Shown piece by piece: positions 8,918-34,977 of a stretch of 42,960 nucleotides of DNA. The notes under the pieces were generated by a model. The model did not search any database, was not told where the DNA came from, and was given only the letters and a program-made list of their open reading frames with translations. Location of the stretch: assembly GCA_013151835.1 (NCBI GenBank), contig JAADHK010000059.1, positions 1 through 42,960 of the forward strand, read 5' to 3'. Every line of letters starts with the position of its first letter. The stretch's first letter is position 1. The translations under genes were made by a program, and so were the position numbers. Source of the stretch: Deltaproteobacteria bacterium. GTDB taxonomy: Bacteria > Desulfobacterota > Desulfobacteria > Desulfobacterales > Desulfosalsimonadaceae.

Positions 8918-9094
8918 AGATATTGATGATCTCGTAAAAAGTCCGTCAACCCGTTAAAGATGGCTAAGTAGAAAGTTCCATATACAAGGCGTAGTGGTGT
9001 TGCGAAAGCGGAGGCATACATTTAGTATTCCGAGCATTTCGCGACCCGCTACAACGCAGTAGATGGGACTTTTTACGACGCCATCAGATATTGA
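8918..9094. mobile_element. MITE-like palindromic element, copy 1, with 9-bp target duplication
   Basis: A 159-bp body (8927-9085) is bounded by the direct repeat AGATATTGA at 8918-8926 and 9086-9094. The ends are imperfect inverted repeats (CTCGTAAAAAGTCC on the left, GGGACTTTTTACGACG on the right). The inner part (8967-9077) is a long imperfect palindrome centred near 9020. No coding capacity. A highly similar copy in the same orientation lies at 30432-30589 with a different 9-bp duplication, so this is a real non-autonomous transposable element, presumably moved by a DDE transposase elsewhere. Confidence 0.88.
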
Positions 9095-26382: not shown

Positions 26383-27360
26383 TCATTCACTAATATTCCA
26401 TTCAAGCCGCCGCAATCTCTCTTGAATGCGAATGAGTGTTGCAACAATCTGCTGCTCCTTCGGCAACTCCCCATAAACCAGCCCCCTGAACTCACCAGTG
26501 TATGTTGCTTTCAATCCACTCCAGCAACCCTCAACATCACGAAACAGCAAGGCATCAGCTGGATGATGTGTTAGCCATTCATTGTTATTCCTGAAACTCT
26601 GAACATCATCCTCGGCAACCTTGAGGATGAACGCAGCAAAATCATCAGAGTCGAAGAAATTGCTGAGCCCTTGATCCTCCAGCATTTTATGGAGATCATA
26701 GACATGGCGGATCTTCATACGAAGGTCATCCATGGGGGTTTCACTGTAAGAAAAGCGCACCAGGCCCATGATCTTCTCGCACAAGGTTCGGTTGACATGG
26801 AGCACATTGACCTGAAAGGGTTGCAGGCCGAACTCCTCTATCATCTCTTGCTGCTCCTGCTCCACCATCATGTCGTGAATATATGCAGACAGAGACTGCT
26901 CGACATACGGCTCATAATATCCATACCATGTCGCCTCAACCACGATCACATCCCTGACCTGCCCGAACCTGCCGTCAAACACTTGGGGATAGTTGTGCGC
27001 CGTCTTTCTGTTCATTCCCATCTTCCGGGTTAATCCTTCAACCTCAATCTCCGGAAGTACGGGTGTGACAACCTGACCGATCCGTTTGATTTTTCTTTTC
27101 AGCTGGTTGTCTGTTTCTCCGCCACGACGTTTGACCACCAGGTCAATGTCTTCTGAAAAGCGTTCAATCAGCCCAAAACATTTAGAAAGTGCAGTCCCAC
27201 CTTTAAAAACCGTCTCTCCACCAATCGGGTCGTGAAAGATGGCATGCAGTGCACAGGTGACCCGGTAATCCTTTTCAATAAAGATTTCCGGGATATGCAA
27301 CTGCTCCGCAGTGGCAGTCACTGCTTGGCGAAAAAGCGTCTTATCCTCATGCAGTCTCAT
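26383..27360 (-). CDS. AbiEii-type nucleotidyltransferase toxin
   Basis: 325 residues from ATG 27360, which overlaps the antitoxin stop as ATGA and has GGAG six bases upstream; a GTG at 27372 is less likely. TVFKGGTALSKCFGLIERFSEDIDLVV (about 50-75) is the GGTxLS...DxD nucleotidyltransferase signature of AbiEii/AbiGii toxins, and EKDYRVTCAL upstream is also typical. In studied members the toxin modifies tRNA or other targets with nucleotides and halts growth, giving phage abortive infection (type IV toxin-antitoxin). The gene order antitoxin then toxin, coupled, is standard. Confidence 0.92.
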   Translation of the reverse strand: MRLHEDKTLFRQAVTATAEQLHIPEIFIEKDYRVTCALHAIFHDPIGGETVFKGGTALSKCFGLIERFSEDIDLVVKRRGGETDNQLKRKIKRIGQVVTPVLPEIEVEGLTRKMGMNRKTAHNYPQVFDGRFGQVRDVIVVEATWYGYYEPYVEQSLSAYIHDMMVEQEQQEMIEEFGLQPFQVNVLHVNRTLCEKIMGLVRFSYSETPMDDLRMKIRHVYDLHKMLEDQGLSNFFDSDDFAAFILKVAEDDVQSFRNNNEWLTHHPADALLFRDVEGCWSGLKATYTGEFRGLVYGELPKEQQIVATLIRIQERLRRLEWNISE

Positions 27361-28082
27361 TTTATACTCCACCTGGAGGCAGAAAAAAGGGCATCAGGCA
27401 CACCGGGGATTGTGTATGTGGTCAAGGGGTTGAGTGATTTCCTCAATTTCTCTGTAACCTCTTCTCTGTTAATGTCGCAGAGTATTGCCCCCAGCAGTGC
27501 ACGGGTTGCGGGCTGGTACTTCATGGCCAGCTTGACGATTTTTCCCTGTTTTTTTTCCGGGAGCTTCGAGATAAGGTTTTGTAAGGTTTTACAACTGTTG
27601 CCGATGGAAGAATCGGGGATCTTTTTTATAAAACGCAGGCTGTCGAGGATCTGGAGAAGAGGGATGTTTTCTCTGGTGATGCTGTTCTTCTGTTTCACAA
27701 AAGATATAGTGTACCGCCCCCGCGCAAAGGATGATCGCACTTCATTCCGTCCAATCTGGATAACACTGCCGACCTGGGTGGTGAGGCCAAGCGTGTTGTA
27801 TATGCTGAGCCCTGTAAGATAGCCCGTCACCTTGCCGTCACGTTCCAAAAGATCTTTCACCACCTGATACCGGTCTGGCGGCAACTCTCCAAAGGGTGAC
27901 TGTTCCGGTTTATAAAATTTACCCTTGGAAAGTTTTACGATCTTGCCGGCAGCGGCCAACCGATTCAGGGCCTTTGCCAACGCCTCCTCACTTTTCACCT
28001 TTTTAGTAAAGTCTGCATAGGTGAAAACATGGCCTTTTGGAAAGCGGTCAATGATATTCTTTATGCATTCAGCATCTTTCAT
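27357..28082 (-). CDS. AbiEi-like antitoxin (DUF6088-type winged helix protein)
   Basis: 241 residues. The N-terminal part (IIDRFPKGHVFTYADFTKKV...ALAKALNRLAAAGKIVKLSKGKFYKPE, about 8-60) is a winged helix-turn-helix of the AbiEi/DUF6088 kind; the remainder (RDGKVTGYLTGLSIYNTLGLTTQVGSVIQIG) is the usual downstream domain. It neutralises the downstream toxin and represses its own operon in known systems. An inverted repeat starts 26 bases upstream of the start codon and is a likely binding site. Confidence 0.88.
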   Translation of the reverse strand: MKDAECIKNIIDRFPKGHVFTYADFTKKVKSEEALAKALNRLAAAGKIVKLSKGKFYKPEQSPFGELPPDRYQVVKDLLERDGKVTGYLTGLSIYNTLGLTTQVGSVIQIGRNEVRSSFARGRYTISFVKQKNSITRENIPLLQILDSLRFIKKIPDSSIGNSCKTLQNLISKLPEKKQGKIVKLAMKYQPATRALLGAILCDINREEVTEKLRKSLNPLTTYTIPGVPDALFSASRWSIK

Positions 28083-29277: not shown

Positions 29278-30327
29278 TCAATCTAATTGCGGCCCGGTTG
29301 AGCAGCACAGGCGGATATTGCCGCCCGTGCTCTGTGCCGGCTCTTTGTCTTCAGTGTTTTCATCAAGCCGGGTTGAGCCGGACGTGAGTACGATTTTGGG
29401 ATCGACCCCGGAGTTTTCGGCGGCTTTTCCAAGGCAGTCCAGCTCCTCGGCCGTCATGAGTTCCGTGTTCGTAAACATCCAGTCAATGCCGAGCCGCCTG
29501 TATTTATCCCTACAGAGATTGTTAAACGCGCACAAATCCCAGCGGGTCACCACGCCTGAAAGGTTGTCGGCGATAAATCCGCCGATGGCGGAGATGTTTT
29601 TTTCACTGGCTGTGGCGTTCGGTATCAGGGGGGTCCGTATCCATAATTCCTTTGGATAGATATGGCTGCGGATATAATCGGCGACAAAACGCGCGTTTTC
29701 AAGTATCGCTTTGTTGTCTTGCCCGCAGAACTTTTTATGATCGTCCGGGTCCATAATTTTTAAGTCAAACATCACCATTGCGGCATGGGGCAGGATTTTT
29801 TCCAAGGCGTTTTTTGTGGTAAGCCCGCAGGTATCAAGGGCCGTGTGTATTCCCTCTTTTCTGAGGCGTGCCAGAAATGCCGCCGTAAAACCGGCCTGTA
29901 TGGTCGGCTCCCCGCCCGAGACGGTAACACCGCCGGAATTCGAGAAATAGGCCCTGTCCTTTAATACCTCGACCGCAAGCTCTTCGACCCCCCATTTTTT
30001 TCCGAAAATTTCCAGGGCGGTAGTGGGGCATTCGGTCGCGCAATCTCCGCACGCAACACATTTTTCCCGGTTGATCTCGATTCCGTCCGGGGTATGGGAA
30101 ATGGCCGAGTTGTCGCAGACATCCTCGCAGGTGCGGCAACCGATACAGCGGGTTTCCACCCACACGACCTGGGGGCGCACGGAAATTGACTCCGGGTTGT
30201 GGCACCAGGCGCAGGAAAGCGGGCAGCCCTTGAAAAAGACCGTGGTCCGGATTCCGGGCCCGTCTTCCGTGGACATGCGTACTATTTCTAATATTGTTGC
30301 CGTATCTTCTTTATTTTTCATAATCAT
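29278..30327 (-). CDS. Glycyl radical enzyme activating enzyme (radical SAM) with two extra 4Fe-4S clusters
   Basis: 349 residues. FFKGCPLSCAWCHNPES holds the CxxxCxxC radical-SAM site; an inserted ferredoxin domain follows with CIGCRTCEDVC and CVACGDCATECP (each CxxCxxCxxxC), as in activases of the glycerol dehydratase, HPAD and BssA classes. TVSGGEPTIQ is the SAM-binding GGE motif. It generates the glycyl radical on the adjacent enzyme using S-adenosylmethionine. ATG 30327 or 30321 (second Met) could be the start; neither has a good Shine-Dalgarno, so translation may be low. A mobile element and a hairpin separate it from the enzyme gene. Confidence 0.93.
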   Translation of the reverse strand: MIMKNKEDTATILEIVRMSTEDGPGIRTTVFFKGCPLSCAWCHNPESISVRPQVVWVETRCIGCRTCEDVCDNSAISHTPDGIEINREKCVACGDCATECPTTALEIFGKKWGVEELAVEVLKDRAYFSNSGGVTVSGGEPTIQAGFTAAFLARLRKEGIHTALDTCGLTTKNALEKILPHAAMVMFDLKIMDPDDHKKFCGQDNKAILENARFVADYIRSHIYPKELWIRTPLIPNATASEKNISAIGGFIADNLSGVVTRWDLCAFNNLCRDKYRRLGIDWMFTNTELMTAEELDCLGKAAENSGVDPKIVLTSGSTRLDENTEDKEPAQSTGGNIRLCCSTGPQLD

Positions 30328-30343
30328 AGGGCATAAGGTTTTA

Positions 30344-30367
30344 TCGGATTACGCTTCGCTAATCCGA
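30344..30367. repeat. Short hairpin between the glycyl radical enzyme and activase genes
   Basis: TCGGATTA (30344-30351) and TAATCCGA (30360-30367) form a perfect 8-bp stem with an 8-base loop. The sequence resembles a short intergenic repeat seen in many bacterial genomes (general recollection). It has no T-run for termination in either direction but could lower downstream expression or stabilise the upstream mRNA. Confidence 0.55.
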
Positions 30368-30422
30368 CCTGCGGAGCTGCGATACTTCGAAACGCTCGGT
30401 CCAAGGCTTCTACGGAGTCGTT

Positions 30423-30598
30423 AGAATTTACGGACTCGTAAAAAGTTCGTCAATACTGTTATGATGGCTAAGTAGAAAGTTCCATATACAAGGCGTAGCA
30501 GTGTCGCGAAAGCGGAGGCATACATATGGTATTCCGAGCATTTCGCGACTCGCTACAACGCAGTAGATGGAACTTTCTACGACGCCATCAGAATTTAC
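30423..30598. mobile_element. MITE-like palindromic element, copy 2, inserted at the glycyl radical enzyme stop codon
   Basis: The 158-bp body (30432-30589) is bounded by the direct repeat AGAATTTAC at 30423-30431 and 30590-30598. It is closely similar to copy 1 at 8927-9085 in the same orientation, with long identical runs such as GATGGCTAAGTAGAAAGTTC and AAGCGGAGGCATACAT. On the minus strand the enzyme gene now ends TTC TGA, where the T comes from the target duplication and GA from the element. Removing the element and one duplication restores TTC TAA, so the protein was unchanged by the insertion. Confidence 0.9.
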
Positions 30599-33104
30599 TA
30601 TGGCTGACCCGGGCAATGACCTCATTTTGCAGCTCCTTTCCAATGGCCGTAAAATAAGCGTTATAACCGGTGATCCTGACCAGAAGGTTGCTGTAGTTTG
30701 CGGGGTGCTTCTGGGCGTCTTTGAGCATATCCGGATCGAGCATGTTGATCTGGAGACAGGTCCCTCCGTTTTGCGCGTAGCCCTTGAGATATGCCTTGAA
30801 CTTTTCCCTGTGCTCGGGGTCTTTTATGATCGACGGGTTGAAGGTGATGGTGTGGCTTGCGCCGTTGGGAAGGCAGTTCATGTAATCCTCCCAGTCTCCA
30901 TTGCCGTCGGCGGCTTTCCCGCCAAGGGCTTTTCCCGCTGAATTGGCGTTTGCCGTGGGGCCGTTTGTGTCCGCGCCGTTTGACGGGCAGATGGCGTTTG
31001 ACAGGAACTCCCCTTTTTTGCGGCCGTCGGCGCTTGCGGCCATGACAAATCCATCGCCGGCCCAGTAGTTCCAGCTCAGCATCCCGGGCCGAAAAGGCCT
31101 GCCGGTCGACAGGGTTTTGTGTTTCCATGTCTCGTCGGCCCAGAGGTCCATCACCCGTTTTGCCATGGCATCCGCCTCGTCGTCGTCGCGGCCGTACTTG
31201 GGCGCCCGGTTTATCGCCTGTGCGCGCAATACTTCCCATCCGTCCCAGTTGGCTTTAAGCGCCTCTATAAGCTCGGCCATAGTGCATTTTTTCTCGTCAA
31301 ACACAAGGTGTTTTATGGCAAGAAGAGAATCCACGGTTGTGGCGAATGTCACCCCCTCGATGGTTACAAAGGATATCTCGGCCCCGCCCCGGGTGATGTC
31401 TTTTGCCTTTTGGGCGCATCCCGATACCAGGCAGGATAGATACGGGGTTGGAAGAAAGGCCGCCCGGGTTGATTCGGTCTTCTCATACAGGGACACGCAT
31501 TTTTTTATGATATACCCGGTCTGCCGCACATAGGCGTCAAAAAACTCCTCAAAGGTCTTAAAGCGCGTGGCATCGCCGGTGAACGGGCCATCCTGCCGGA
31601 TTTTTTCCGTCTTGTTGATCAGGGTATCAAAGAACGGGACAAGGTCTTTTCCCCCGGTCAGGGCAAGCTCCACCGCCTTTAAGAGATTTAAATTGCAATC
31701 CACGGTTCCGGACCGGTCGTTTCCGGCCATGGTGTTTTCAAGGCAGCCCACGGGCGCGTAATCGAAAACATTGGACTTGTTTATCAGGTGCGAAAGTCCG
31801 GACGTAGCAGATTCGCGCATCATGCCCGCCATGGACCGCTCGTCGAAATTAATGAGAAACGGGGCTCCCTGGCTGGTTGAAATCATATCTGCGAGTTTGT
31901 CGAGCAGTTTTTCGGGCGAATTTTTATGAATCCGCACGTTCGGCTTTGGTTCGAGTATGGGGGAAAGTTCGTCTATCACTTCGAGCATGGCAAAGGTAAG
32001 GTCGTTTGTCATATCCCGGCCGTTTTCCCCAAGCCCGGAAAGGGATACCAACTGGCCGAACCCGGAGGTGATCCCCTGTTTTCCGTTTTTTATCATGGCG
32101 TCATAGGCCGCGTTGCAGTGAATCCAGAAGCACCTTAATATCTCTTTTCCGAATTCCCGATCCATGCCGTTTTTGAGCGAATACTCCCAATAGGGCAGGA
32201 GATACTGGTCGATTCGGCCAAACGACACCCCCGGGCCGGGGTAATTTTCGTCGGAGATGACCAGCATGTGGTTTATCCACAGGGCCTGGACCGCCTCCCA
32301 GAAAGTTTTCGCAGGCTCCCACGGTACCTTTTCGAGGTTTTTCGTCATCTGCTCAAGCTCCGCCGCACGATCGGAATTTTTTTCCCGCGCGGCAAGGTCT
32401 TTGCAAAGAGCCGCATACCCGGCGGCAAGGTCTTTGGGAAGGGTGGCTGCGGTCATCATGGCTCGGAGCTGAGCGCCCTTTTCACCTGTTTTTTCCATGG
32501 AAGAAAGGCTGTTGTATCGTTTTTCGAGGTCCGCTGAAATTCCCTTCCACCCGAGTTCAAGGGCGCGCTTATGACCGGGTATCAAGTGGCCGCTGGTGGC
32601 GCCCGTATTTCCGTACCCATGATCATGAAACCATTTCACGGCCTTGCGCGCCCCTTTTTTCCCGCAGGAGCGTGCGTCATATTCCTTTTGCTCTTCTTCG
32701 GTCAAGCACATGGACGCCTGGATATTGAAACGTCCGCCTGCGATCAGGTCACCGGGAAGTATCTCTTTAGGAAGGTTGTTTACCATTACCTCGCGGATAA
32801 ACCATGCCCTGCGCTCAACAATCGGTTTCGACCAGAAATCGCCCGGAAGTTTAACCGGTCTCGCAGCCTGGCGGTAGGACCCCCGCATGGTCTGGAGGAG
32901 AAGATAGGTTTCCGGAACAATATGGTAGGTCATCTCGTTGAATTGAACATCCCAGGGCGTGCCGGTAGTCCAGGAGGTGAATTCATTGTTCCATTTCCGC
33001 TTTGTTCCCATGAAATAATACTGCCTGAGCGCGGAAACGCGTTCGGAAAGATTGCCGGGGGTTTTTATTTGCGGCGGATATGTATGTGCGGCGGAGATAC
33101 TCAT
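30588..33104 (-). CDS. Glycyl radical enzyme of unassigned substrate (PFL-like; possibly arylacetate-decarboxylase-like)
   Basis: 838 residues. PVGCLEN places the thiyl Cys454 with Glu456 (GCxE), and VRITGYNAYF places the glycyl radical at Gly813. The N-terminal PFL domain carries LPGDLIAGG and DENYPGPGVSFGRIDQYLLPYW. A GCxE site excludes PFL itself, and no microcompartment genes are nearby. The Cys-to-Gly spacing of 359 is nearer to hydroxyphenylacetate decarboxylase (Cys503, Gly873) than to choline lyase or isethionate lyase (about 335), and the activase also has extra clusters, but no small HpdC-like subunit is present and the residue at the HPAD His536 position appears to be Asp487. AGGAGG lies five bases before ATG 33104. 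Substrate unknown. Confidence 0.93.
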   Translation of the reverse strand: MSISAAHTYPPQIKTPGNLSERVSALRQYYFMGTKRKWNNEFTSWTTGTPWDVQFNEMTYHIVPETYLLLQTMRGSYRQAARPVKLPGDFWSKPIVERRAWFIREVMVNNLPKEILPGDLIAGGRFNIQASMCLTEEEQKEYDARSCGKKGARKAVKWFHDHGYGNTGATSGHLIPGHKRALELGWKGISADLEKRYNSLSSMEKTGEKGAQLRAMMTAATLPKDLAAGYAALCKDLAAREKNSDRAAELEQMTKNLEKVPWEPAKTFWEAVQALWINHMLVISDENYPGPGVSFGRIDQYLLPYWEYSLKNGMDREFGKEILRCFWIHCNAAYDAMIKNGKQGITSGFGQLVSLSGLGENGRDMTNDLTFAMLEVIDELSPILEPKPNVRIHKNSPEKLLDKLADMISTSQGAPFLINFDERSMAGMMRESATSGLSHLINKSNVFDYAPVGCLENTMAGNDRSGTVDCNLNLLKAVELALTGGKDLVPFFDTLINKTEKIRQDGPFTGDATRFKTFEEFFDAYVRQTGYIIKKCVSLYEKTESTRAAFLPTPYLSCLVSGCAQKAKDITRGGAEISFVTIEGVTFATTVDSLLAIKHLVFDEKKCTMAELIEALKANWDGWEVLRAQAINRAPKYGRDDDEADAMAKRVMDLWADETWKHKTLSTGRPFRPGMLSWNYWAGDGFVMAASADGRKKGEFLSNAICPSNGADTNGPTANANSAGKALGGKAADGNGDWEDYMNCLPNGASHTITFNPSIIKDPEHREKFKAYLKGYAQNGGTCLQINMLDPDMLKDAQKHPANYSNLLVRITGYNAYFTAIGKELQNEVIARVSHSKF

Positions 33105-33134: not shown

Positions 33135-33857
33135 TTATGTTTTAAGCAGCGTCTTGAGCCAATCCTCACCATGGGCGAGGATGTCTTTTATCACCTCCAT
33201 GGCAATGTCTTCGTTTTGATCGGCAATGGCGGAAACGAGTTTTCTGTGAAAATCAAACACGGTCGGAACCACGTTTTCGTCCGAGAAAAAGACGGCTGAA
33301 AGGGTGGTGTAGACCGGTTTGAATGAATTCATCAAAAGGGTGTAGAGCACGTTTGAAGAGGCCAGGGCAAGCCGGAGGTGAAGATCGAAATCAAGGGCCA
33401 CGATCTTTGCCGTCTCACCGGGTTCGGTCTGGGATTCTTCGAATATGACGCTGAAAAAACCCTCCAGCTGCTCCATTGTCCGGTTTGCGGCGGCAAGCCG
33501 GGCTGTTTCGGTCTCAAAGAGCTTTCGCATGTTTAAAAGCCCGTCCAGAATTTTAGGGTCAAGATCCTGTTTCTGGTAGTTTACAAGGGACATGAGCAGG
33601 CAAAGAGAGCCGTTTTTAAGGTAGTCGTTTACAACGGTGCCGACCCTTGGAATGATTTCAACAAGCCCCTTTGCCGCAAGATCGACCAGCGCTTCGTGAA
33701 CCACGGGGCGGCTGACGCCCAGGCGCAGGGCAAGCTCGCGTTCGGGCGCAAGCTTTTCGCCCGCTTTTACCTTTCCCGAAAGGATAAGCGCCTCAAGGCT
33801 CGCTATACAGGCATCTTTTGTACTCTCGACCCGGACCGGTTTCAATGCTTCAAGCAT
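33135..33857 (-). CDS. FadR-type GntR-family transcriptional regulator
   Basis: 240 residues. The winged helix (IASLEALILSGKVKAGEKLAPERELALRLGVSRPVVHEALVDLAAKGLVEIIPRVGTVV, about 18-77) is the GntR DNA-binding domain; the C-terminal all-helical FCD-type domain (from about 100) has the DFDLHLRLA and FHRKLVSAIADQNEDIA segments that hold a metal or ligand in FadR-like proteins. It lies 30 bases upstream of the enzyme gene in the same direction and is the likely regulator of the operon and itself. A TGGTNNNACCA palindrome lies 31-41 bases upstream of its start. Confidence 0.93.
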   Translation of the reverse strand: MLEALKPVRVESTKDACIASLEALILSGKVKAGEKLAPERELALRLGVSRPVVHEALVDLAAKGLVEIIPRVGTVVNDYLKNGSLCLLMSLVNYQKQDLDPKILDGLLNMRKLFETETARLAAANRTMEQLEGFFSVIFEESQTEPGETAKIVALDFDLHLRLALASSNVLYTLLMNSFKPVYTTLSAVFFSDENVVPTVFDFHRKLVSAIADQNEDIAMEVIKDILAHGEDWLKTLLKT

Positions 33858-34005: not shown

Positions 34006-34977
34006 ATGAGCAGAGCATGGAGAATAGAATTTGAGGGTGCCTTGTATCATGTATTGGCACGGGGCAATGCCAAGCAGGATATTTTTACGGATGATCGGGA
34101 CAGGCTGTTGTTTATCGATTTAATCAGTGAAATGGCGGTGCGTTTTGAAATTGACGTGTATGCCTGGGTCCTCATGGGAAATCATTATCATTTATTGCTT
34201 AAAACAAACCGGGCCAATCTGTCCAAAAGCATGCAGTGGTTTGGTGCGAATTACACCCGCAAATACAATATCCGCCATGAAAGAACCGGCCACCTGTTTC
34301 AGGGACGGTTTAACAGTTTTTTAATTGAAAACGATTCATATCTGATGCGCCTGTCGTGTTATATCCATAGAAACCCGTTACGGGCGGGAATCGTGAAACG
34401 CCTGGCAAATTACCGCTGGAGCAGTTATCCTGTGTATGCGTACGGAAAAAAGCCGCCGGAGTGGATGAACACCGAATTGATATTTTCTTTTTTTACCGGC
34501 AGGCAAAAAGTAAAAATTAAGGCATACCGAAAAAAAGTGCAGTATTATTCCCATGAGGAGAATGATTTTTGGGAGGATTTACGCCATGGACTTGTTTTCG
34601 GAACCCCGGAATTTGTTGAAACAATAAGAAGCAGGCATTTACCCGATTCGCCCCATAAAGAACAACCCCAGCAACGCGATCTCATCCGCGCTTCAGATCC
34701 CCGCATCTTACTGAATAAAGCCGCCGCAGCGCTTGGCTGTGACCCGGGTGAATTCATCGAATCAAGACGGGTGTACGGAGCCGCCAAGGCCAACAGGGAT
34801 GTATTGATGTATTTTTTCTGGGAACTTGGCGTATATACAAACGGAGACATCGGCAACCTGTTTAATGTGACCTATTCTTCGGTCAGCAGAACCATATCGT
34901 CTATCAGGAAACAATTGCCTGAAGATAAAACTTTGAAAAAATTGATTCGCCGCATAAAGTCTCAAATCAAGATGTGA
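34006..34977 (+). CDS. REP-associated tyrosine transposase (RAYT, IS200/IS605-like Y1 family)
   Basis: 323 residues. The start MSRAWRIEFEGALYHVLARGN is the family's usual opening, fixing the start. GNHYHLLLK (58-66; His60, His62) is the HUH metal site and CYIHRNPLRAG (118-128; Tyr119) the catalytic tyrosine region. RAYTs nick single-stranded DNA at REP hairpins. The C-terminal third (about 225-323) is an extra helix-turn-helix region (AAAALGCDPGEFIESRR, GDIGNLFNVTYSSVSRTISSIRKQL) similar to the DnaA domain IV-like tail of some family members. The gene appears intact. Its end overlaps the convergent mannosyltransferase gene by 11 bases. Confidence 0.92.
   Translation: MSRAWRIEFEGALYHVLARGNAKQDIFTDDRDRLLFIDLISEMAVRFEIDVYAWVLMGNHYHLLLKTNRANLSKSMQWFGANYTRKYNIRHERTGHLFQGRFNSFLIENDSYLMRLSCYIHRNPLRAGIVKRLANYRWSSYPVYAYGKKPPEWMNTELIFSFFTGRQKVKIKAYRKKVQYYSHEENDFWEDLRHGLVFGTPEFVETIRSRHLPDSPHKEQPQQRDLIRASDPRILLNKAAAALGCDPGEFIESRRVYGAAKANRDVLMYFFWELGVYTNGDIGNLFNVTYSSVSRTISSIRKQLPEDKTLKKLIRRIKSQIKM

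Follow-up and report, generated by a model that had tools for sequence, protein, structure and literature searches.

A palindromic MITE family with target TYAANNTTRA and its insertion at the stop codon of a glycyl radical enzyme gene

Introduction

The Chunjie MITE is known from Geobacter uraniireducens, where its copies are 178-235 bp long (Chen et al. 2008, cited in PMC10969869). As far as the description in PMC10969869 goes, the element reported here is like Chunjie in being short and non-coding, with dozens of intergenic copies, inverted ends and direct repeats, a likeness of description only, and it differs from Chunjie in its length of 161 bp. The description of Chunjie consulted (PMC10969869) makes no mention of stop codons being reconstructed at the target. 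Correia elements, ERIC, QMITE and MITEAba12 are likewise non-autonomous repeats able to enter transcripts, according to the portions of PMC10969869 and PMC6382973 drawn on here. MITEAba12 is described in the same portions as carrying stop codons in all six frames and as making 9-bp duplications without a sequence trend, whereas duplications here are 6 bp long and follow a clear palindromic motif. REP sequences, which go with RAYT transposases, are also extragenic palindromes near genes, but they are 20-40 bp long in the part of PMC3733652 consulted, in contrast to the 161-bp element with its terminal inverted repeats and 6-bp duplications. The present element is palindromic, flanked by short direct repeats, and lies between the gene of a glycyl radical enzyme (GRE) and the gene of its activase.

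Results

The window, that is, the whole stretch of 42,960 nucleotides that was analysed, comes from a genome described as sulfate-reducer-like. The GRE gene (30588-33104, minus strand) encodes 838 aa with PFL-like and Gly_radical domains and does not reach the cut-off for any of the curated NCBIfam subfamilies. Its glycyl motif RITGYNAYF and Cys motif GCLEN are intact, and it shares about 66-77% identity with proteins in MAGs of Desulfobacterota, Syntrophaceae/Smithella, Spirochaetes and Bacteroidetes and 29-36% with the other GREs found. A GntR/FadR-type regulator is encoded directly upstream on the same strand (33135-33857). On the other side of the spacer, also on the minus strand, lies the gene of the GRE-activating radical SAM protein (29278-30327; 349 aa, TIGR02494 PFLE_PFLC above cut-off), and further along the window an AbiEii-like nucleotidyltransferase gene adjoins that of a DUF6088 protein (26383-28082), which looks like an AbiE-type toxin-antitoxin pair.

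It is evident that the palindromic element is one copy of a large family. Its right end has 161 matches genome-wide (at most 3 mismatches), whereas the reversed control pattern has none, and the family numbers about 160 copies in the genome, far beyond chance. The strongest full copies show 87-92% identity, and 40 were scored in one search besides the copy at 30429-30589. Another copy lies in the window at 8931-9088; it has a 7-bp match (AGATATT), and a MITE-like end (TTGACGGACTCATAAAAAGT) adjoins it downstream. The terminal inverted repeats read GATGGCGTCGTAAAAAGTC and GATGATCTCGTAAAAAGTC in sister copies, and the copy at 30429-30589 starts TACGGACTCGTAAAAAGTT; the family termini are GATG...CATC, with the ends also given as GATG..CTCGTAAAAAGTC. 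Copies in relatives of other genera and families, mostly 150-161 bp in length, have the same termini and the same 6-bp duplication. The earlier note's view that a mobile element had inserted here is supported, in that the family is multicopy and has target-site duplications.

The length of the duplication was measured on the 81 copies with both ends readable. It is at least 6 bp in 67 of them (exactly 6 in 57, 7 in nine and 8 in one), whereas left and right flanks re-paired at random share at least 6 bp in about 2% of cases. The 7-8 bp duplications in 10 copies are chance extensions of 6 bp. Since the duplication is 6 bp, the element between GRE and activase is 161 bp long and occupies 30429-30589 on the minus strand, flanked by AGAATT at 30423-30428 and again at 30590-30595. 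Its end GATGGCG... at 30589 adjoins the GRE gene, and A30590, read on the minus strand, gives the T of the stop codon of GRE.

With the element in place the minus strand reads AAA TTC T|GA TGG, and with the flanks joined it reads AAA TTC T|AA CGA. The stop TGA at 30590-30588 is therefore made of one base of the duplication (T) and two bases of the element (GA), and the predicted 3' end of the gene before insertion is ...AAATTCTAACGACTCC. On the sequence, the earlier note was right that the gene ends TTC TGA with the element and TTC TAA without it, the insertion supplying the last two bases of the stop and leaving the 838 residues unchanged. The comparison of orthologous junctions that it had proposed was borne out in part. 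At 30 orthologous loci the gene ends at the equivalent residue or at most two residues from it, and four of the orthologous loci have TTCTAA at the GRE end. The orthologue ends agree with the predicted pre-insertion state, though the nearest GRE orthologues are 76-77% identical in protein and no empty site was seen, this genome being the only one of its genus in the comparison.

We then sought the reason why a stop codon was hit. In 50 copies that do not lie on stops, the target logo is T-Y-A-A-n-n-T-T-R-A, a 10-bp palindrome (TYAANNTTRA) whose central 6 bp (AANNTT) is the duplicated part. At the edge of the motif, T|RA corresponds to TAA or TGA, and since both ends of the element start with GA, the stop after insertion always reads TGA. 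A gene that ends in TTAA or TTGA makes a natural target, because the outer RA after the final T of the duplication completes TAA or TGA. When the 57 copies with a clean duplication were taken, 7 of the 49 non-genic ones were found exactly on a native stop codon, that of GRE and those of six other genes with coding-like codon use. In relatives belonging to other genera and families, 3 copies of 27 likewise lie on a native stop. These results suggest that the target motif accounts for most stop-codon insertions, and that landing on a stop is recurrent and mostly ordinary.

The GRE site itself has probably been hit more than once. At 30407-30423 (minus strand) lies TAACGACTCCGTAGAAG (the TAACGACTCC remnant), probably what is left of the end of an older repeat from a second MITE family; this end would have held the pre-insertion TAA. 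This sequence has 19 genome matches with at most 1 mismatch, and its reversed control has none. The second family is palindromic, about 130 bp long, with ends TGACGACTCCGTAAAAAGTC and TTTTTACGAAGCCGTCA; full copies at four loci read TGACGACTCCGTAAAAAGTCCGTCTGC...TTTTTACGAAGCCGTC, and at least one copy supplies a stop, the TGA of a GGDEF-type gene. Judged from its 17 bases, the remnant is probably a decayed copy of this family. A REP-like palindrome, TCGGATTACGCTTCGCTAATCCGA, follows at 30344-30367 between the MITE and the activase gene, with 18 further genome matches to that part and one match in the window. With MITE, remnant and REP-like palindrome side by side, the spacer between GRE and activase is therefore a pile of repeats. 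The window also holds, together with the REP-like palindrome, a gene for a Y1-type transposase resembling REP-associated tyrosine transposases (34006-34977; NF047646, just under cut-off).

A matching pair of ends was found at none of the DDE_Tnp_1 (PF01609) loci fetched from 36 genomes. One candidate autonomous partner, an apparent pair of ends (885 bp), in fact consists of one MITE copy and a separate end. One-sided matches occur in relatives (L220-L223), and the ORF lists of L221 and L222 contain no obvious transposon.

The earlier note had taken the duplication as 9 bp and the element as 158 bp, and an element of another kind that makes 9-bp duplications would fit the exact repeat AGAATTTAC found on either side of the inner 158 bp. 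The boundaries drawn from 81 copies tell against both figures. Duplications of 7-8 bp in register occur in just 10 of the 81 copies, as chance allows, and the outermost TAC of this copy aligns with the GAC terminus of sister copies; the repeat appears as 9 bp because this TAC happens to equal the TAC of the gene after AGAATT. The 9-bp reading is thus refuted by the family comparison unless the copy at 30429-30589 used a different transposase, and we regard it as very improbable. A separate question is whether gene 3' ends or stops are actively recognised, by the family or by its transposase, beyond what the sequence motif provides. An initial enrichment of stops of about 10-fold, obtained with the 6-bp motif, was lowered once the 10-bp motif was used, the exact-stop expectation for non-genic sites being 1.4% with the former and 4.7% with the latter. 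With the 10-bp motif, learned from the same copies as were tested, and with gene calls from a simple codon-usage model, 2.3 of 49 copies are expected on stops and 7 are seen (P = 0.007), and four other copies lie 10-30 nt inside the 3' end of a gene. However, the excess drops to 4 seen against 2.15 expected (P = 0.17) once three copies with what resembles another MITE-like end in their downstream flank are set aside, and in the 30 nt just past stops copies are not in excess (5 of 42 versus about 12% expected). A small extra bias toward stops is possible, and active recognition seems unlikely.

It could also be argued that the insertion was kept since its hairpin tunes expression, guarding the GRE mRNA from 3' exonucleases and/or lowering activase so that the enzyme is in excess. 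The long palindrome that the earlier note placed between enzyme and activase is indeed there, in imperfect form, at 30429-30589. The spacer RNA is computed to fold strongly (-96.9 kcal/mol, z -5.9), GRE and activase lie on the same strand and are probably in one transcript, and spacers of at least 130 nt are found in about 17 relatives, most with strong but unrelated folds; effects of MITE and ERIC sequences on transcripts via RNase III or RNase E are cited in the part of the review PMC10969869 consulted. On the other hand, 45 of 76 orthologous gene pairs manage with a gap of less than 40 nt. Recurrence of palindromes at GRE-activase junctions was considered and dropped after a control at the same loci, where long spacers are found about equally often at such junctions (10 of 24) and between other same-strand neighbours (28 of 83). 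No intrinsic terminator (GC-rich hairpin plus U tract) was found on the transcribed strand of the spacer, the sole terminator-like match being on the plus strand at 29578, and 30250-30750 has no Rfam match up to E 1. The element, moreover, occupies about 160 further sites in the genome. Nothing here favours the role in stoichiometry that the earlier note proposed; lower activase or a more stable enzyme mRNA is conceivable, and retention for expression tuning appears improbable.

Discussion

The element is short (161 bp) and without coding capacity, has terminal inverted repeats and a 6-bp target-site duplication in most copies, and is dispersed in about 160 copies. It has the features of a MITE that were tested. 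What is new here is why the stop codon was hit, namely the T|RA edge of the target and the GA start of the element.

The locus is very probably best explained by insertion of a non-autonomous palindromic MITE into the region between GRE and activase, at its target TYAANNTTRA, which changed the stop from TAA to TGA. The family inserts at this motif and duplicates the central AANNTT, moved by a transposase presumably encoded elsewhere. A frame stopping at T|RA becomes T|GA on insertion and keeps its stop, as in GRE, where TAA was changed to TGA with all 838 residues unaltered. The former TAA was probably the end of an earlier, decayed repeat, in which case the GRE site would have taken two or more insertions. 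An influence of the hairpin RNA on the mRNA, of the sort exerted by palindromic repeats elsewhere, may exist, and the insertion would by default be neutral and tolerated. More tentatively, and with the balance against it, the T|RA half-site and the GA terminus could be an evolved low-damage strategy, by which the family accumulates harmlessly at gene ends and stacks on its own ends.

For a large MITE family that spans a family of Desulfobacterota-like genomes, the boundaries, duplication length and target are now defined. The target edge and the element start offer a simple reason, at the level of sequence, why a mobile element can land repeatedly in stop codons without harm to the protein. 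They also call for caution, as stop codons and gene 3' ends in such genomes are often derived from repeats.
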